The translations under genes and the position numbers were made by a program. From a virus, in IMG/VR virus record IMGVR_UViG_3300030430_003264, positions 1 to 30,511 of that record: a stretch of DNA of 30,511 bases; one strand, 5' to 3'. The notes beneath the pieces were generated by a model, which was not told the origin of the DNA, made no database searches, and saw nothing but the letters and a program-made list of their open reading frames with translations. Positions 15,074-30,511 of this stretch are shown in pieces (the stretch's first letter is position 1; each line of letters begins with the position of its first letter).

Positions 15074-15922
15074 ATGCAAACCGTCATAGGTTTGGGTAAA
15101 GCGGGTTGCAATATCGCAGACCACCTGTCACAATACCCACAATACCAAATAAAAAAATTAGATGTAGGTTTAAAAAAGACCAAAACAACATTTGGTCTTA
15201 AGCATCAGGACAGTCCCGAACTTTATGAATCAACCACACTACCGAAAGGTATTAACAACTTCTTAGAGGGGGTGATGTCTGAAACCTTGTTCATCACAAG
15301 TTGTGGTGCTGTTTCTGGTGCTTCTCTTAAAATATTACAGAAAATATACAAGAAAACTAAAATACGAGTAATGTATATTCTTCCACAAGAAGATAACCTT
15401 GCGGGTCAAAAACTTTTACAAAATCGTCTTCTTTTTAACGTTTTTCAAGAATACGCTCGATCAGGATTATTGAATCGTGTCTTTTTAGTTGACAATTCGA
15501 AATTATCTGATATAATGGGTCCTGTTCCAATAATGAAGTTTTGGGACTCAATGAATAAATTAGTGACAACAACATACCATATGTTAAATGTTTTTCAAAA
15601 TACACACCCCGTCATGACCACGCAGACCAAGCGTATTAATACGGCTCGTGTATCTACTTTTGGTCTACTCGACTCAGAAAATAATCAAGAAAAAATGTTT
15701 TTTAACCTTGACATTCCAAGAGAGAAGTGTTACTATTATGGAGTTCCGAAAAAACAATTGGAAGAAGATCCTAATCTTATGGAGGTTATTCGTAAAAATT
15801 TAAAATGTAATGTTGAACACGAAAAAATGAAAACTACTTATTCGGTACATTCAACCGATTATAATAAGCTTATAGCTTACTGTGAAAAAAGCAGCACTTT
15901 AATACAACAACTAGCAGTGTGA
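15074..15922 (+). CDS. Divergent FtsZ/tubulin-fold protein
   Basis: A 282-residue protein. It starts with 'VIGLGKAGCNIADHL', the GxGxxGxN nucleotide loop (T1) of FtsZ/tubulin at residues 6-13. Residues 75-84, TSCGAVSGAS, sit where FtsZ has its GGGTGTG T4 loop, after a hydrophobic strand (TLFI) as in FtsZ. 'YILPQEDNLAGQKLLQNRL' and 'LNRVFLVDNSKL' follow the FtsZ order of the PF strand, long helix and the 'IPNDRL'-like strand. At about 188-196, where the synergy loop would be, INTARVST lacks the usual acidic residues. It is probably a GTP-binding or degenerate tubulin-fold protein, perhaps with weak or no GTPase activity. It lies seven bases after the polymerase gene with a GAGGAA ribosome site, and before SSB. 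The fold call is from motif order only. Confidence 0.6.
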   Translation: MQTVIGLGKAGCNIADHLSQYPQYQIKKLDVGLKKTKTTFGLKHQDSPELYESTTLPKGINNFLEGVMSETLFITSCGAVSGASLKILQKIYKKTKIRVMYILPQEDNLAGQKLLQNRLLFNVFQEYARSGLLNRVFLVDNSKLSDIMGPVPIMKFWDSMNKLVTTTYHMLNVFQNTHPVMTTQTKRINTARVSTFGLLDSENNQEKMFFNLDIPREKCYYYGVPKKQLEEDPNLMEVIRKNLKCNVEHEKMKTTYSVHSTDYNKLIAYCEKSSTLIQQLAV

Positions 15923-17063: not shown

Positions 17064-17399
17064 GTGAAAAAATGGAAAAAAGGAGAAGAAGGTTTTGAAA
17101 AAGCCTTACAAGATATAGCAAGAAAATATAAAGGTCTTGGAGGCGGTCCAAACAGTGAATCATCTGTTCATGCTTCGAAGCAGGACATAAAAGAAGGTTA
17201 TGCTTGGTTTTGGTCTGATAATAGTGATGTGTCTAATCTAATTCAACGATCTAAAGATTATATTCTAGAGATTAGAGATCATGGTGATAATATTTCGTTT
17301 AAGCTAGATAAGAATGGCTATCGAGGACCGATATATGCATTTAGACCCGACAGACTACTAAATGAAAATTTATATGAGGAGGAAAATGAGATTGGCTAA
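17064..17399 (+). CDS. Unknown small protein upstream of uvsX
   Basis: A 111-residue protein I do not recognise. GTG 17064 is chosen as start because GGAG (17054-17057) is six bases upstream; it touches the nearer ATG 17058, too close to serve it. The N-terminus is basic (KKWKKGEEGFEKALQDIARK), followed by a Gly-rich turn, an aromatic stretch (GYAWFWSDNSDVSNLIQR) and a beta segment (YILEIRDHGDNISFKLD), ending acidic. There is no membrane segment or cysteine. It overlaps the uvsX start by 14 bases, so the two are probably translationally coupled and this may be a recombination accessory factor; that is inference from position. Confidence 0.7.
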   Translation: MKKWKKGEEGFEKALQDIARKYKGLGGGPNSESSVHASKQDIKEGYAWFWSDNSDVSNLIQRSKDYILEIRDHGDNISFKLDKNGYRGPIYAFRPDRLLNENLYEEENEIG

Positions 17400-18498
17400 A
17401 AAGAAACCAGCTGGTCGTCTATCGATGGACCAGATGAGAAAACTAATAAATAAAAAAGCAGGACAAGAAGTTTCTGTTGATCTAGCAGATCCAAACAATC
17501 CAACAACTGTTAAACAGTGGATTCCAACTGGCTCGCGTTGGCTTGATAGTATTATTTGTCGTGGTAAGCTAGCTGGCATACCTGTGGGTAAAGTCACAGA
17601 AATAGCTGGTTTAGAAGCGAGTGGTAAGTCCTATATGGCTGCTCAAATAGCAGGCAACGCTCAGAAGATGGGTATTGATGTTGTCTACTTTGATTCAGAG
17701 TCTTCACTGGACTTTAACTTTTTGGAAAAAGCAGGATGTGATCCATCTAAAATCCTTTATGTCCAAGCAACTTCAGTAGAGTTTGTTTTGGAAACAATGG
17801 AAGAACTACTTTCTTCCACAGATAGTCAGTTTCTTTTTATCTGGGATAGTTTGGCTCTTACACCTTCCATCTCTGATGTGGAGGGTGATTTCAACCCACA
17901 GTCTAGTATGGCTGTAAAAGCCCGGATCTTAGCAAAAGGCATGTCTAAATTAACTGTTCCTATTGCGAATAGTCAATCGACATTTCTAGTGTTAAATCAG
18001 CTTAAGACAAACATTACTCGTTCACCTTCGGAGACGCTTACTACACCTTATGTAACACCCGGTGGCAAAGCAATGATATATTCTTATTCGTTGCGCGTAT
18101 GGTTGACCAGACCGAAAGCAAAAGCTTCTTTTGTGACTGATGATAAAGGTTATCGTATTGGTAACACCGTCAAGGTTAAACTAGAGAAGTCTCGTTTTGG
18201 ATCACAAGGACGTCAATGTAAGTTTCAAATCCTTTGGGGCGATCAAGTTGGTGTTGCCGATGAAGAAAGCTGGTTTGATGCTATTCAAGGCTCTGAGTAT
18301 TTAGATCGCGCCGGTGCGTGGTATGAGCTTAAGTTCGAAGATGGCACAAGCGAAAAGTTTCAGTCTGCACGTTGGATTGACAAGCTTCAAGATGATAAAT
18401 TTAAAGCACGAGTTCTTGAAATAATGGATGAAGAAATTGTTCGCAAGTTTGATAAAAGAACTGGTGATGCCACTGAGTTCTACGAGGAAACTGCATAA
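17386..18498 (+). CDS. uvsX: UvsX/RecA-like recombinase
   Basis: A 370-residue RecA-superfamily strand-exchange protein (T4 UvsX is 391). ATG 17386 is preferred because AGGAGG (17377-17382) precedes it; TTG 17392, with better spacing, is an alternative. The Walker A motif is GLEASGKS at about residues 75-82. Walker B is 'FLFIWDSLALTPS'. 'PYVTPGGKAMIYSYSLRVWL' is the conserved UvsX/RecA segment that includes the L2 and ATP-sensing region. 'LNQLKTNI' matches the RecA 'NQ(L/I)R.KI' motif. The C-terminus is acidic. It would form presynaptic filaments on SSB-coated ssDNA for recombination-dependent replication and repair, acting with the gp32-like SSB nearby. Confidence 0.9.
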   Translation: MRLAKKKPAGRLSMDQMRKLINKKAGQEVSVDLADPNNPTTVKQWIPTGSRWLDSIICRGKLAGIPVGKVTEIAGLEASGKSYMAAQIAGNAQKMGIDVVYFDSESSLDFNFLEKAGCDPSKILYVQATSVEFVLETMEELLSSTDSQFLFIWDSLALTPSISDVEGDFNPQSSMAVKARILAKGMSKLTVPIANSQSTFLVLNQLKTNITRSPSETLTTPYVTPGGKAMIYSYSLRVWLTRPKAKASFVTDDKGYRIGNTVKVKLEKSRFGSQGRQCKFQILWGDQVGVADEESWFDAIQGSEYLDRAGAWYELKFEDGTSEKFQSARWIDKLQDDKFKARVLEIMDEEIVRKFDKRTGDATEFYEETA

Positions 18499-18506
18499 GG
18501 TAGAAT

Positions 18507-19481
18507 ATGAGCGAGCGAGTAATCATTATAGACGGACTAAACATGTTTCTGCGAAGTTACATTGTAGTCCCACAGCTTTCTAAAGAAGGTCAGCCTATTG
18601 GTGGAACAACTGGCTTTCTTAAATCTCTTCAAAAACTTTGTCGAGAAATGAAACCAACTCAAGTTGTTGTTTGTTGGGATGGACGCGGCGGCAGTCGTAA
18701 GCGTAAACAACAGAACAAAAACTATAAAGAGGGTAGAGCGCCTATTCGTCTCAACCGTAACTTTAAAGTTTTAACAGAAGATCAAGAAAAAGAAAATAAA
18801 ATCTGGCAGCAAGAAAGAATCTGTGAGTATCTAAATAACTTTCCAGTTATGCAGCTAATCGCAGATGAAGTCGAAGCAGATGATATTATCTCTTACATAT
18901 GCCGATATAGTAGTTTACGTGATAGTGAAAAAATTATAGTTTCTAGCGATAAAGACTTTTATCAGCTGCTTAATCAGAAGACTATTTTGTATCGCCCGGT
19001 TCAAAAAAAGCTATTAACTCAAACCAGTATAATAGATGAGCACAGCATTCATCCAAATAACTTTGCTCTTGCTCGCGCCATCGTTGGAGACAAATCTGAT
19101 AATTTAGATGGAGTTCCCGGTATTGGGCTGAAAACGGTTGCTAAACGATTTCCTTTCTTTAAGAAAGAAGAAGATGTTTATCTTAATGATTTAATAGAGT
19201 TTTGTGAAAATCAAGAAAGCAACGCTAAGGCGTTCACCTCTATAAAAGAGAATAAACCACTTATTCAGTCTAATTATAACCTGATGCAACTGTATAGTCC
19301 AAGCCTTTCGGCGCAGACTAAACAAAGCATCGAATGGATTATTGACAACTTCGAACACACCTTCAATAAAACTCAAACATATAAAATGATGTTAGAGGAT
19401 GGGATCAATGAGATCAGTTGGAGTGCTATGTTTGAAAGTTTCGCAAAAATCCAAAGGGATAAAAAGGAACTTAATAAATGA
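18507..19481 (+). CDS. 5'-3' exonuclease / flap endonuclease (T4 RNase H type)
   Basis: A 324-residue FEN-family nuclease. Metal-binding acidic positions can be followed in order: Asp9 in 'VIIIDGLNMFLRS', Asp58 in 'VVVCWDGRGGS', the EVEADD cluster at 121-126, Asp148/Asp150 in SSDKDFYQLL, and Asp195/Asp198 in GDKSDNLDGVPGIG, which opens the helix-3-turn-helix DNA-binding motif. Basic residues after Asp58 (RKRKQQNKNYKEGR) are the usual arch. The family removes RNA primers and 5' flaps on the lagging strand. The family A polymerase here lacks its own 5' nuclease domain, so this would be the separate partner. The start is close behind uvsX, and its stop overlaps the next ATG (ATGA). Confidence 0.9.
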   Translation: MSERVIIIDGLNMFLRSYIVVPQLSKEGQPIGGTTGFLKSLQKLCREMKPTQVVVCWDGRGGSRKRKQQNKNYKEGRAPIRLNRNFKVLTEDQEKENKIWQQERICEYLNNFPVMQLIADEVEADDIISYICRYSSLRDSEKIIVSSDKDFYQLLNQKTILYRPVQKKLLTQTSIIDEHSIHPNNFALARAIVGDKSDNLDGVPGIGLKTVAKRFPFFKKEEDVYLNDLIEFCENQESNAKAFTSIKENKPLIQSNYNLMQLYSPSLSAQTKQSIEWIIDNFEHTFNKTQTYKMMLEDGINEISWSAMFESFAKIQRDKKELNK

Positions 19482-20486: not shown

Positions 20487-21845
20487 ATGGACAGTTTAGG
20501 AATCTTTGGAAAGAGTTTCCAAGAAAATATGTGTAAGCTTATGCTTTACGACCGATCTTACTGTGATCAAATGCAAGAAGTGTTAGATGTTAAATACCTA
20601 GAGCTAAAGTATCTGCAAGTTTTTACAGATAAACTTTTTAATTACAAAAAAGAATACGGTATACATCCAACAAATGATACACTCAATTCAGTTCTAAATA
20701 CAGAGCTAACAGATGAGAATGAAGTAATAAAAAAACAAGTAATGGATTATTTTGTAAAGGTGCAAGCTTTTCCCGAGATCCAAGACACAGAATATATTAT
20801 ATCAAAGTCTGTAGATTTCTGTAGAAAACAAGTGCTCAAAAAAGCCATGATGAAATCCGTACCTCTTTTAAATAAATGTTCATTTGAGGAAATAGAGAAG
20901 CTTATATCTGATGCTTTACGTTTGGGCATAAGCAATGATCATGGTTACGATTATATTAAAGATTTTGAAGCTCGTTTTATTGAAAGAGCCCGTAACCCGG
21001 TAACAACCGGCTGGGCAAAAATAGATAAGATAACCAAAGGCGGCTTAGGTCAGGGTGAACTAGTAGTTGTAGTTGCCCCAACAGGCGCCGGAAAATCTCA
21101 TGTTCTTGTTCATCTCGGCGCACAAGCATTAAAACAAGGTAAAAACGTTGTTCATTTTACACTAGAACTTGCCGATACGTCCGTTGCTCAACGTTATGAT
21201 GCCTGTCTCACTGGAATACCATTAGATGAGCTTATAAGTCAAAAAGATGAGGTTTATGACACAATTAAGGATATTGATGGTCAACTCATTGTAAAAGAGT
21301 TTCCAACTAAGTCTGCTTCCGTTGTGACTCTTAAAAATCACTTAGAAAAAATTAGACAAACAGAAATGGAAATCGATATGATCGTTGTTGACTACGGCGA
21401 TTTGTTAAAAAGTTCAGTGGTTCGTAAAAATTCTGAGAAAAGACATGAATTAGAATCTATTTATGAAGAGCTACGCGGGCTTGGACAAGAGTTTGGTTGC
21501 CCTATAGTAACCGCTTCACAAACCAACCGAAAGGGTCTTAACGAAGAAGTAATCACAATGGAGTCAATCTCGGAAGCGTTTAATAAATGCTTTGTCGCAG
21601 ATTTTATCATAAGCTTATCTAGAACTATCAAGGATAGGAATGCAAATATAGCACGCATTTTTGTGGCTAAAAACAGAAATGGTCCTGATGGAATTGTGTT
21701 TTCCGCGTTTATGGATACGTCAAGTGTGTCCATTAAAGTTCTAGAAAGAGACGATGTTGTAAAGTTGCAACAACAACAGCTAGCAAAACAGCAACAAAAA
21801 GAGTTTTCAAAAGCCCGAGAAGTCTTTAGAAATATGAAGAAATAA
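20487..21845 (+). CDS. dnaB: Replicative DNA helicase (DnaB/gp41-like)
   Basis: A 452-residue DnaB-family helicase; T4 gp41 is 475. The N-terminal 150 residues are helical and divergent. The RecA-type motor follows: 'TGWAKIDKITKGGLGQGEL' near 174-191, Walker A 'APTGAGKS' at about 197-204, 'VVHFTLELADTSVAQRYDA' (motif 1a), and Walker B 'MIVVDYGDLL'. The motif 3/4 region has 'CPIVTASQTNRKG', and an Arg-rich closing segment 'IFVAKNRNGPDG' is typical of DnaB. The C-terminus is Gln/Lys-rich. It would unwind the fork in the 5'-3' direction for the polymerase. GCGAGGAA precedes the ATG. It is the first gene after a dedicated promoter. No primase gene is visible in this window. Confidence 0.92.
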   Translation: MDSLGIFGKSFQENMCKLMLYDRSYCDQMQEVLDVKYLELKYLQVFTDKLFNYKKEYGIHPTNDTLNSVLNTELTDENEVIKKQVMDYFVKVQAFPEIQDTEYIISKSVDFCRKQVLKKAMMKSVPLLNKCSFEEIEKLISDALRLGISNDHGYDYIKDFEARFIERARNPVTTGWAKIDKITKGGLGQGELVVVVAPTGAGKSHVLVHLGAQALKQGKNVVHFTLELADTSVAQRYDACLTGIPLDELISQKDEVYDTIKDIDGQLIVKEFPTKSASVVTLKNHLEKIRQTEMEIDMIVVDYGDLLKSSVVRKNSEKRHELESIYEELRGLGQEFGCPIVTASQTNRKGLNEEVITMESISEAFNKCFVADFIISLSRTIKDRNANIARIFVAKNRNGPDGIVFSAFMDTSSVSIKVLERDDVVKLQQQQLAKQQQKEFSKAREVFRNMKK

Positions 21846-21859
21846 GGAGAGAAAGACAT

Positions 21860-23722
21860 ATGCCACAAGACATCGCCAACAAGACATTATCGGACATCAC
21901 AGTCCACATGAAGTACGCAAAGTACTTACCTGAGAAAGAGAGAAGAGAAGTATGGTCAGAGTTAGTAGATCGCAACAAATCGATGCACATAAAAAAGTTT
22001 CCAGAGATGAAAGAAGAGATAGAGGCAGCGTATGAATACGTATATGATAAAAAAGTTTTGCCTTCTATGCGCTCTATGCAGTTTGGCGGTAAGCCCATTG
22101 AAGTTGCCCCTAATCGTATTTTTAATTGTGCCTATTTGCCTATCGATGATTGGCGTTCATTTCATGAAATTATGTTTTTACTTCTTGGCGGCACTGGCGT
22201 TGGCTATAGCGTACAGTTCCATCACGTAAATAAATTACCGGAAATCGTAAGACCGTCTGTTAAGCGCACACGCCGCCACCTTGTTGGTGATAGCATAGAG
22301 GGCTGGGCAGATGCGGTTAAAGTACTTATGAAATCTTATTTTGTTGGCGGTTCTAAGATTCGTTTTGATTATAGTGATATTAGACCAAAAGGCGCGAGAT
22401 TAGTAACTTCGGGTGGTAGAGCGCCAGGACCACAGCCTCTTCGTGAATGTTTGGTTAAATTAGAGGGTATATTGTGTAATAAAGACACTGGAGACAAGTT
22501 AACTCCTATTGAGGTCCACGATATGGTGTGTTACATCGCTGACGCAGTTTTAGCTGGTGGCATCCGACGAGCCGCACTCATATCTCTATTTTCTGCTGGT
22601 GATGATGAAATGATCTCTGCAAAAAGCGGTCACTGGTGGGAAAAGAATCCACAGCGCGGACGAGCAAACAATTCTGTTGTTCTTATGCGCCACTTGGTTA
22701 CGGAAGAGTTCTTTAAAGACCTCTGGTTTCGCGTAAAGGCGTCAGGAGCAGGCGAGCCAGGGTTTTATTTCTCAAATGATAAAGACTGGGGCACAAATCC
22801 TTGCTGTGAAATTGCCCTTCGACCTTATCAGTTCTGCAATCTAACAGAAATCAACGCTTCTGACGTAGATAACCAAGAAGAAATCAATGCAAGAGCCCGA
22901 GCAGCTACATTTATTGGCACTTTACAGGCTTCTTACACTGATTTTCATTATCTTCGCGACGTTTGGCGTAGAACAACGGAAAAAGACGCTCTTGTTGGTG
23001 TATCGATGACCGGTATTGCTTCTGGTAATGTTTTAAAACTCAATATGAAAGAAGCGGCAAAAGAAGTTAGAAAAGAAAATAAAAGAATTGCAGATCTTGT
23101 GGGTATCAAGCCTGCAGCCAGAACAACTTGCGTAAAGCCAGCTGGAACAACAAGCTTGACTCTTGGAACATCCTCTGGCATCCATGCTTGGCACAATGAT
23201 TATTATGTACGTCGCTTACGTGTCGGCAAAAATGAAGCCATCTATAATTATTTGTCGATTTACCATCCAGATCTAGTGGAAGATGAGTTCTTCCGACCAC
23301 ATGATACTGCAGTTATCTCTGTTCCACAGAAAGCACCCCAGGGGGCTATTACTCGCGATGAAACTGCTATGGACATGTTAGAAAGAGTGAAAAAAGTTTC
23401 TACAGAGTGGGTAAAGAACGGACACGGCAAAGGTCAAAACACCCACAATGTTTCAGCAACCGTCTCTATTCGTGAAGAAGAATGGGATACTGTCGGTCAG
23501 TGGATGTGGGATAATCGCGCAGTTTATAATGGTCTGTCGGTTCTTCCTTATGATGGCGGCAGCTATAAGCAAGCTCCGTTTGAAGACTGTGATGAAGTAA
23601 CTTATATTAAGCTTTTAGATACACTGGAAGATATTGATTTATCTAAAGTTATTGAGATTGAAGATAACACAGACCTCAAAGGCGAGCTAGCTTGTGCTGG
23701 TGGAGCTTGCGAAGTTTCCTAA
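21860..23722 (+). CDS. nrdJ: Adenosylcobalamin-dependent (class II, monomeric) ribonucleotide reductase
   Basis: A 620-residue class II reductase of the monomeric Lactobacillus-type (RTPR) group. It makes deoxyribonucleotides for phage DNA and needs coenzyme B12 from the host or medium. Visible features are 'RIFNCAYLPIDD' (Cys90, active-site pair member), 'LLGGTGVGYSVQFHHV' and 'NPCCEIAL' with the radical Cys315 and Glu317. Cys326 in 'QFCNLTEIN' is the second pair member, and 'CVKPAGTTSLTLGTSSGIH' is the phosphate-binding segment. The C-terminal redox pair CAGGAC is at 612-617. All key cysteines are present, so it should be active. GGAGAG is upstream. The length is below the roughly 740 of L. 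leichmannii, suggesting trimmed regulatory parts. Confidence 0.9.
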   Translation: MPQDIANKTLSDITVHMKYAKYLPEKERREVWSELVDRNKSMHIKKFPEMKEEIEAAYEYVYDKKVLPSMRSMQFGGKPIEVAPNRIFNCAYLPIDDWRSFHEIMFLLLGGTGVGYSVQFHHVNKLPEIVRPSVKRTRRHLVGDSIEGWADAVKVLMKSYFVGGSKIRFDYSDIRPKGARLVTSGGRAPGPQPLRECLVKLEGILCNKDTGDKLTPIEVHDMVCYIADAVLAGGIRRAALISLFSAGDDEMISAKSGHWWEKNPQRGRANNSVVLMRHLVTEEFFKDLWFRVKASGAGEPGFYFSNDKDWGTNPCCEIALRPYQFCNLTEINASDVDNQEEINARARAATFIGTLQASYTDFHYLRDVWRRTTEKDALVGVSMTGIASGNVLKLNMKEAAKEVRKENKRIADLVGIKPAARTTCVKPAGTTSLTLGTSSGIHAWHNDYYVRRLRVGKNEAIYNYLSIYHPDLVEDEFFRPHDTAVISVPQKAPQGAITRDETAMDMLERVKKVSTEWVKNGHGKGQNTHNVSATVSIREEEWDTVGQWMWDNRAVYNGLSVLPYDGGSYKQAPFEDCDEVTYIKLLDTLEDIDLSKVIEIEDNTDLKGELACAGGACEVS

Positions 23723-28114: not shown

Positions 28115-30511
28115 ATGTCCGAAAGAACACAAAGTAGTATTCCGTTTGTAGGCTTACACGCTCATAGCGGAACGGGTAGCCCTTTTGATGGACTCGGCTA
28201 TCCTGGCGAGCATATGGACTTCGCCTATCAGAATGGTAATGATGCTCTTGCCCTGACTGATCACGGTAACATGAATGGATTTGCTTATCAAGTTCAGCAC
28301 GCTCAAAAGATGATGAAAGAGGGCAAAGACTTTAAGCCTATCTTTGGTGTCGAAGCTTACTTCCTGCCTAGCATCGAAGAGTGGCGCGAGGAACTAGAGC
28401 GCGTCAAAGAAGATAAGAAAGCAAAGAAATCGATTGATAAGTCGGCTTCTGGAACAACTATTGAGAATGAAGAAAACAAAAGAGAAGTTAAAAATATTCT
28501 TAATCGTCGTCGCCATCTTATCTTATTAGCGCAGAACCAAAAAGGTTTGAATAATATTTTTTCTCTCGTATCTAAATCCTACAGAGAAGAAAACTTCTAT
28601 CGCTTCCCGCGTATTGATTACGCTATGCTTAAAGAGCACAACGAAGGTGTAATCGCAGCTTCGGCCTGTCTTGGCGGCGTATATGCTGGAAACTTCTGGG
28701 AAAACCGTGAAGAGGGCGAAGAAGCTGTACTTAATGCTATGCGCGAGACAACCAGGAATATGGTTGATATTTTTGGCGATCGCTGGTACGGTGAACTTCA
28801 ATGGAACAATGTACCCGAACAGCATCAATTAAACCGCCTAATTGTAAAAGTTTGTGATGAATTTGGCGTTGAATTAATTTCTACGGCTGATAGTCACTAT
28901 CCAAACAGAACAGCCTGGAAAGATCGAGAACTTTACAAAAGACTAGGTTGGTTAAGCAGGGGTATGCCTAAGTGGGCAACAAACACGGAACTCCCGGAAG
29001 GCGTCGAAGAAATTGGTTACGAATTGTTTCCAAAGAATGGCGATCAAATGTGGGAGGCATACAAAGAATATTCACAAAAAGCAGGAGTAGAATACGATGA
29101 TAATATTATCCGAAGATCTATTGAAAGAACGCATCAAATCGCTCATGAGCGGATTGAAAAGTTTATGCCTGATAACACAGTTCGTCTCCCGAACTTTGTT
29201 GTTCCCGCTGGCCAAACTCCCGATAGAGCCCTTGTCGCTGCTTGTGTGGATGGGCTTAGAGAGCTTGGGTTAACTAATAAAAAAGAATATGTTGATCGAC
29301 TAAAAGAAGAGATGAATGTAATTAGCGAACGAGGCTTTAGTAAATATTTTTTAACTATGAAGTCTATTGCTGATAAAGCAACTGACGTACAACTTACAGG
29401 TGCAGGCCGAGGATCTGCGGCAGGTTCATTGGTTGCTTATGCCCTTGGCATCACACAGGTTGACCCTATCAAGTATAATCTTCTATTCTCTCGTTTTATG
29501 ACAAAAGATTCAAAAGATTATCCTGACATTGATTATGATGTGTCTAGCCCAATGGAGCTAAAAGAAATGCTGATTGATGAGTGGGGTGGTAATACTGTTG
29601 TGCCAATCTCCAACTTCAATAAACTGCAGCTGCGCTCTTTGATTAAAGATATTGCAAAGTTCTACGAGGTACCGTTCACAGAGGCTAATGCTGTGACTTC
29701 TAAAATGTTGGCCGAGGCAACACCAATTGCTAAAAAGAAACATGGCATAAAGGCTGGTATATATGCGCCCACATTTGAAGAGGTGATGGAATATTCTGAT
29801 TCGCTTAAAGCGTTTCTCCGAAAGTATCCAAAGATTAAAACTCACGTCGAGGCTTTGGTCGGTGAGGTTCGTTCTGTATCTCGTCACGCTGGTGGTGTAG
29901 TTATTGGCGAAGAGTTAGATAAGTATATGCCGCTTATTAACTCTGGTGGTGTAACCCAAACGCCTTGGTCCGAAGGCCAACACGTTCGGCAGTTGGAGCC
30001 GATGGGTTTTATTAAGTTTGATATTCTTGGTCTTTCGACATTAAAAATGATCGAGGGCTCTGTCTATCATATTTTAAAGAAACAGGGAAACCCAGATCCC
30101 AGCTTTGAGGACATTAAAAAGTTTTATAATGAAAACTTACATCCTGATAGTATTAATCTAAAAGACAAGAATGTCTATGAGAATATCTTTTGGAAAGGTA
30201 AGTGGGCAGGTATCTTTCAGTTCGCAGAGAAAGGCGCTCAGAACTTTTGTAAAAGAACAAAACCAAAGAACATTATTGATATCGCCTCTATCACTTCTAT
30301 CTATCGTCCTGGTCCGCTCTCCGCGAACGTTCATGAAGATTTTGTAGAAGCAAAAGAAAACCCAAGAAGTATCCGCTATGGTCATGATATTGTAAAAGAA
30401 GTTACAAAAGAAACTTATGGCTTTCTTATTTTCCAAGAGCAGATTGCTTTGCTAGCTCACAGACTGGGCAAAGACTTGTCTCTGGATGAAGGTAACAAAC
30501 TTCGCAAGCTA
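28115..30511 (+). CDS. dnaE: DNA polymerase III alpha subunit (family C), 3' truncated by window end
   Basis: An open frame of 799 codons running to the last base with no stop. GGAGA is upstream of ATG 28115. An N-terminal PHP domain is visible: 'FVGLHAHSGTGSPFDGLGYP' (HxH at 15-17), 'ALALTDHGNMNGFAYQVQHA' and a later ADSHYP. The palm has 'GAGRGSAAGSLVAYALGITQ' near 430-450. Catalytic Asp471 and Asp473 lie in YPDIDYDV, matching E. coli D401/D403, and Asp636 in 'GFIKFDILGLSTL' matches D555. 'FGIFQFAEKG'-type and 'SIYRPGPLSANVHEDF' segments follow the bacterial order. All catalytic acids are present, so it should be an active polymerase. The clamp-binding and OB regions would lie beyond the window. 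No epsilon-type exonuclease domain is in the visible part; PHP may proofread. Confidence 0.93.
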   Translation, partial: MSERTQSSIPFVGLHAHSGTGSPFDGLGYPGEHMDFAYQNGNDALALTDHGNMNGFAYQVQHAQKMMKEGKDFKPIFGVEAYFLPSIEEWREELERVKEDKKAKKSIDKSASGTTIENEENKREVKNILNRRRHLILLAQNQKGLNNIFSLVSKSYREENFYRFPRIDYAMLKEHNEGVIAASACLGGVYAGNFWENREEGEEAVLNAMRETTRNMVDIFGDRWYGELQWNNVPEQHQLNRLIVKVCDEFGVELISTADSHYPNRTAWKDRELYKRLGWLSRGMPKWATNTELPEGVEEIGYELFPKNGDQMWEAYKEYSQKAGVEYDDNIIRRSIERTHQIAHERIEKFMPDNTVRLPNFVVPAGQTPDRALVAACVDGLRELGLTNKKEYVDRLKEEMNVISERGFSKYFLTMKSIADKATDVQLTGAGRGSAAGSLVAYALGITQVDPIKYNLLFSRFMTKDSKDYPDIDYDVSSPMELKEMLIDEWGGNTVVPISNFNKLQLRSLIKDIAKFYEVPFTEANAVTSKMLAEATPIAKKKHGIKAGIYAPTFEEVMEYSDSLKAFLRKYPKIKTHVEALVGEVRSVSRHAGGVVIGEELDKYMPLINSGGVTQTPWSEGQHVRQLEPMGFIKFDILGLSTLKMIEGSVYHILKKQGNPDPSFEDIKKFYNENLHPDSINLKDKNVYENIFWKGKWAGIFQFAEKGAQNFCKRTKPKNIIDIASITSIYRPGPLSANVHEDFVEAKENPRSIRYGHDIVKEVTKETYGFLIFQEQIALLAHRLGKDLSLDEGNKLRKL

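Follow-up and report, generated by a model that had tools for sequence, protein, structure and literature searches.

To our knowledge, every phage tubulin described to date is a GTPase that forms filaments and comes from a jumbo or plasmid-like phage. Phage tubulins that position or segregate phage DNA are on record (PMC3678025, PMC13282480). In tubulin, FtsZ and phiKZ TubZ, the canonical longitudinal contact is made by the T7 loop, the base of helix H8 and strand S9, with T7 bearing the catalytic acid; PhuZ of phiKZ, a tubulin of the nucleus-forming jumbo phages, assembles canonical protofilaments and has the catalytic T7 aspartate (PMC3678025). The window studied here, a 30,511-nucleotide stretch of an IMG/VR virus record (IMGVR_UViG_3300030430_003264), encodes a 282-residue protein, TUB1 (15074-15922), between a DNA polymerase and a single-stranded DNA-binding protein. 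In contrast, the PhuZ gene of phiKZ does not adjoin such a pair. A preliminary description, made from the letters alone, had taken TUB1 for a degenerate FtsZ/tubulin-fold protein inside a phage replication module, and this assignment is upheld by structure search, by profile-profile comparison with negative controls and by synteny in more than 250 loci. TUB1, its elements and the genes from PolA to DnaB described below lie on the plus strand.

An AlphaFold model of TUB1, computed from an input of 36 aligned sequences, had a pLDDT of 93.2 and a pTM of 0.91. When residues 1-282 were compared by VIA-align, the best structural matches were CetZ (Z 24.4) and FtsZ (2r6r; Z 22.5), at about 10-15% identity, and the two-domain fold was also shared with the partition tubulin TubZ of plasmids and phages (PF00091 + PF22453; 2xka, Z 23.5); Z values ranged from 21 to 24, and the alignments spanned the whole model. 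FtsZ also ranked first with Foldseek (E 4.5e-13). Every chain among the 50 PDB matches listed belongs to the tubulin superfamily and aligned across essentially the entire model. The outcome that would have overturned the preliminary description, a confident match to a non-tubulin Rossmann family with no second domain of tubulin type, did not emerge. In BFVD the best viral match was A0A6J5RW92 (E 2.7e-12), a 452-residue protein of an uncultured Caudovirales phage named 'FtsZ Cell division GTPase', whose likeness to TUB1 is structural. The relatives of TUB1 fall into two clades, A, which includes the window, and B. The clade B protein of L279, 29% identical to that of the window, gave a model with a pLDDT of 90.9 and a Z of 25.6 against CetZ. 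This shared predicted fold, together with a dN/dS of 0.105 across 22 window-like genes, indicative of purifying selection, shows that these features of TUB1 go beyond chance.

As a single sequence, TUB1 matched no family in Pfam or PHROGs, and nothing useful in NCBIfam or meaningful among PDB sequences. However, the tubulin/FtsZ family PF00091 was touched below threshold by 10 of 36 members, more than any other Pfam family (best E 0.0014). A family profile of 99 nr90 sequences, compared by hhalign with pooled FtsZ and PhuZ, gave a probability of 94.1 (P 1.2e-7), collinear across residues 3-175 and as strong as that between FtsZ and PhuZ (93.4). The match rose to 96.6 (P 4.9e-10) when TUB2, a second tubulin of clade B, was added to the pool; these stronger values belong to the pooled profiles, those against FtsZ alone (P 5.6e-4) and PhuZ alone (probability 19, P 0.0012) being weaker. 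Control profiles (PolA, RecA, SSB, exonuclease, DnaB and a neighbouring protein) did not match TUB1 (P > 0.08). Moreover, TUB2 matched the TUB1 of four clade A records over H6-H7 (E 3e-6 to 2e-5), which provides a direct sequence link between the family of the window and a canonical tubulin. The best PDB sequence-profile match, to SirA, a sporulation protein that controls replication (E 0.0088), covered residues 106-166 only; given the tubulin fold, we dismissed it as probably due to chance. That TUB1 is instead a Rossmann-type protein for another ligand, such as a dinucleotide, and merely resembles tubulin, seems highly improbable: its T1 loop is GxGxxG-like and a few members show weak Pfam matches to NAD(P)-binding or TrkA_N families, but the listed structural matches are tubulins over the full length, second domain included, and the profile match to FtsZ, PhuZ and TUB2 would be hard to reconcile with it. 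We conclude that a two-domain fold of the tubulin/FtsZ superfamily, degenerate in a specific way, is well supported for TUB1 by the models and profiles.

This degeneracy can be followed element by element. The T1 nucleotide loop pointed out in the preliminary description, GLGKAGCN (residues 6-13; 15089-15112), is conserved, with G6, G8, G11 and C12 each at 97% or more in 99 nr90 relatives. The T4-like segment, TSCGAVSGAS, corresponds to residues 75-84. Within it (residues 76-84, SCGAVSGAS; 15299-15325), profile alignment and conservation agree with the earlier reading that the GGGTGTG signature is broken: GGGTG[ST]G is replaced by [CG]Gx[VI]SG, typical of clade A, or by G[DE]P[IV]SG in clade B, and some relatives are richer in glycine (e.g. 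VGGGGxISGAS). Neither the GGGTGTG nor the NxDFAD of CetZ and FtsZ is present. LVDNSKL falls at S6/H6, in the FtsZ order that had been proposed, and N141 (15494-15496) is conserved in 98% of the 99 nr90 relatives. We take N141 to be the equivalent of FtsZ N166 and tubulin N206, a guanine contact, and the aromatic residue at 157 and N161, in the core helix H7 (residues 153-175; 15530-15598), to correspond to tubulin Y224 and N228; in the profile alignment, W157 and N161 are paired with a W and an N of TUB2. Clade A retains these positions (126 nr90 sequences, the window's included; N141 97%, 157 mostly aromatic, N161 97%), whereas in the 31 clade B sequences they are replaced by mostly R/K, by E and by mostly S/A, respectively. 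Helix H5 of the model (residues 112-130; 15407-15463) carries the family hallmark FNVFQEYARS. In both clades Q125, S130, L85 and Y101 are invariant (Q125 and S130 at 100%) and R129 is conserved at 98-100%. Since the H5 residues are invariant even where the guanine residues are lost, guanine contacts are not the most conserved feature of TUB1.

At the site expected for the T7 synergy loop and H8, the AlphaFold model has a linker (residues 176-192; 15599-15649) with neither helix nor catalytic acids, and the same was found for residues 177-193 of the L279 model; the absence of H8 is thus read from predicted models. The preliminary description had the synergy-loop acids replaced by INTARVST. The acids are indeed gone, but INTARVST is a linker into strand S7 and not a mutated synergy loop. 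The model continues with a second, activation-type domain (residues 193-274; 15650-15895) made of strands S7-S10 and H10, in which a short strand, within EKMFFNLD, takes the place of H9. TUB1 is about 100 residues shorter than TubZ, from which it also differs in lacking T7, H8 and H9, in its altered T4 and in having PolA and SSB as neighbours; PhuZ, a phage member of the superfamily like TUB1, differs from it in retaining T7. Because T7 and H8 are absent and T4 is altered, TUB1 is predicted to be unable to polymerise or to hydrolyse GTP in the usual way, and the loss of T7/H8, as modelled, argues against a simple homopolymeric cytoskeletal role. It could still form a real but non-canonical filament, comparable to those of PhuZ or TubZ, for positioning or segregating phage DNA, as other phage tubulins do, and the fold, the T1 loop and the base-contact residues of clade A would fit such a role. 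We regard this as quite improbable, however, because the protofilament contact and catalytic acid are missing from both clades, T4 is altered and clade B is without the guanine residues. Also, a search of 10 long records with chimallin (phiKZ gp54) gave no match, although remote homologs could escape a single-sequence search of this kind.

The gene immediately upstream of TUB1 codes for a short family-A DNA polymerase, PolA (395 residues, PF00476; 13879-15066), and the one immediately downstream for a gp32-type single-stranded DNA-binding protein, SSB (PF08804; 15962-16708), both assigned by domain match and synteny. Domain matches place a UvsX/RecA-type recombinase (17362-18498), a 5'-3' exonuclease (18507-19481) and a DnaB-type replicative helicase (20487-21845) in the same module. 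By eye, PolA has the family-A motifs, apparently without a 3'-5' exonuclease domain, and its motif C reads HDS, not HDE. DnaB is followed by a B12-dependent (class II) ribonucleotide reductase (21860-23722). A DNA polymerase III alpha (PHP, PF07733 and finger domains; 28115-30511) runs past the end of the window, so that the phage encodes a C-family polymerase in addition to the short PolA.

The position of TUB1 in this module is nearly fixed. Among loci with enough sequence, a set made partly redundant by contigs that had been retrieved repeatedly, PolA lies upstream in 258 of 259 (214/215 in clade A, 44/44 in clade B) and a gp32-type SSB downstream in 282 of 282 (242/242 and 40/40). In 159 of the 198 unique genes the start codon of TUB1 falls between -30 and +25 nt from the stop codon of PolA, with overlap in 112; the gap is 7 nt in the window. 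When relatives were retrieved by PolA alone, TUB1 was found in all, save at one locus that ends inside PolA. In clade B (L386, L396, L366), a protein of about 130-150 residues with the motif HRKKxxNTLYTINALN is encoded between TUB1 and SSB, and in outgroup phages without TUB1 it lies between PolA and SSB (L225:1346-1801, L224:4675-5064, L223:7785-8174), suggesting that TUB1 may be an insertion between PolA and that gene. L396 and L366 also have, between TUB1 and SSB, an ORF resembling a small heat-shock protein (MSNLVRYNTPSLLGRSIFDELFGDF...).

This setting bears on whether TUB1 could block host division, stopping the Z-ring by co-assembly with host FtsZ or by capping it. A protein of tubulin fold that has lost one of its contact faces would suit such an activity, and phage proteins that block FtsZ are a known theme (the unrelated T7 Gp0.4, P1 Icd and lambda Kil). 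However, TUB1 is strictly linked to PolA and SSB, which are not early host-takeover genes, its structure-based identity to FtsZ is very low (about 10%), and its H5 patch is invariant over a divergent phage group, unlike what a host-specific effector would show. We therefore think an inhibitory role improbable.

TUB1 relatives are encoded on at least 595 IMG/VR stretches, and TUB1 belongs to the core genes of a group of uncultured phages. By tblastn, neither TUB1 nor two divergent members found a relative in 50,697 phage records (INPHARED). In gene content and order, by which it was placed rather than by a tree, the group resembles the Far-T4 phages (PMC4360716). The main text of the Far-T4 paper mentions neither FtsZ nor tubulin (PMC4360716), and the first 50 kb of Rhodothermus phage RM378, a possible Far-T4 relative, gave no match to the TUB1 profile. 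We found no earlier description of the family in the open-access papers searched. Three wider relatives, Flavobacterium phage immuto, Microcystis phage Mel-JY01 and the huge phage LR756508, have the same module order without TUB1, which was found in none of 80 immuto-like loci with the PolA-SSB-RecA-exonuclease-DnaB module; the replication module does not, then, need TUB1. Clade B is a genome-level clade, as SSB and RecA separate it too. A WOR-3 MAG chromosome (CP070664; L082) was considered as a bacterial occurrence of TUB1, and so as a pointer to the host, and rejected, since its phage module lies between runs of N and is likely a mis-scaffolded phage fragment.

Long clade B records encode a second tubulin, TUB2 (377-378 residues), which scores above the PF00091 and TubZ-like_C cut-offs. 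This canonical TubZ-like protein, encoded near the terminase gene (L440:5975-7111, L442:7243-8376), retains T1, a G-rich T4 and the T7 DxxD (segment FDATDYD). It was found in 5 of 5 clade B records against 0 of 12 of clade A, the terminase being found in all 17; in G043, one of the clade A records, no TUB2 lies in the syntenic interval that runs from an SbcCD-like gene to the terminase, and seven clade A records scanned for PF00091 gave no other match. Searched by tblastn, TUB2 had no match in annotated phage records. It is under extreme constraint (dN/dS 0.021; 92% mean identity over 59 unique sequences). Its presence together with the loss of the guanine site in TUB1 is suggestive, on the evidence of one clade.

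It seems possible, if doubtful, that TUB1 is an end-cap or anchor, similar to gamma-tubulin or to a protofilament-capping inhibitor, that terminates or tethers a filament at the site of phage replication. A polymerising tubulin could dock by its T7/H8 face onto the nucleotide face that TUB1 keeps, while the T7/H8 face of TUB1 itself is absent; longitudinal contact would be lost on one side only. The filament would be TUB2 in clade B, where 11 of the contigs listed carry both genes and TUB2 keeps T1, a G-rich T4 and the T7 DxxD under extreme constraint; in clade A it would be host FtsZ or some other partner. Yet TUB2 was found in none of the 12 clade A records, the two genes are distant from each other in the genome and differ greatly in evolutionary rate (61% identity for TUB1 and 95% for TUB2 on the same contigs), and the co-occurrence, being confined to one clade, possibly reflects one event. 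We consider it rather unlikely that TUB1, made with the DNA polymerase, works in the manner of gamma-tubulin and, as a cap or anchor, links the replication machinery to a tubulin filament (TUB2 in clade B). If TUB1 were a cap or anchor, clade B would have a two-tubulin viral cytoskeleton with one dead and one live member.

Our preferred reading, to which we give slightly less than an even chance, is that TUB1, a member of the tubulin superfamily, no longer forms filaments or turns over GTP and has come to serve as an accessory protein, adaptor or regulator, in the replication machinery. Such a role is suggested by the genome setting and by conservation: the fixed position between PolA, which the gene in most cases overlaps or adjoins, and SSB, the purifying selection on the gene, and the H5 residues that stay invariant even in clade B. 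TUB1 would be made together with PolA and act at the replication complex, possibly through a surface near H5 or through the nucleotide face. Either GTP or GDP might be bound in clade A, as a switch or as a structural ligand; in clade B this nucleotide input would have been lost, with the canonical TUB2 encoded elsewhere in the genome. Against an accessory role, gene neighbourhood is no proof of a complex with PolA or SSB, the immuto-like phages have the same module without TUB1, the mirror-tree partial correlations of TUB1 with PolA (0.33) and SSB (0.43) are modest, and, as H8 is missing from predicted models, a non-canonical polymer is conceivable.

TUB1 is a widespread core gene whose product retains the tubulin fold, appears to have dropped the filament machinery and is encoded among DNA replication genes. 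The two clades provide a natural experiment, in that clade A has the guanine residues and no second tubulin, whereas clade B has lost these residues and has a highly conserved canonical tubulin. TUB1 would extend the tubulins into replication.
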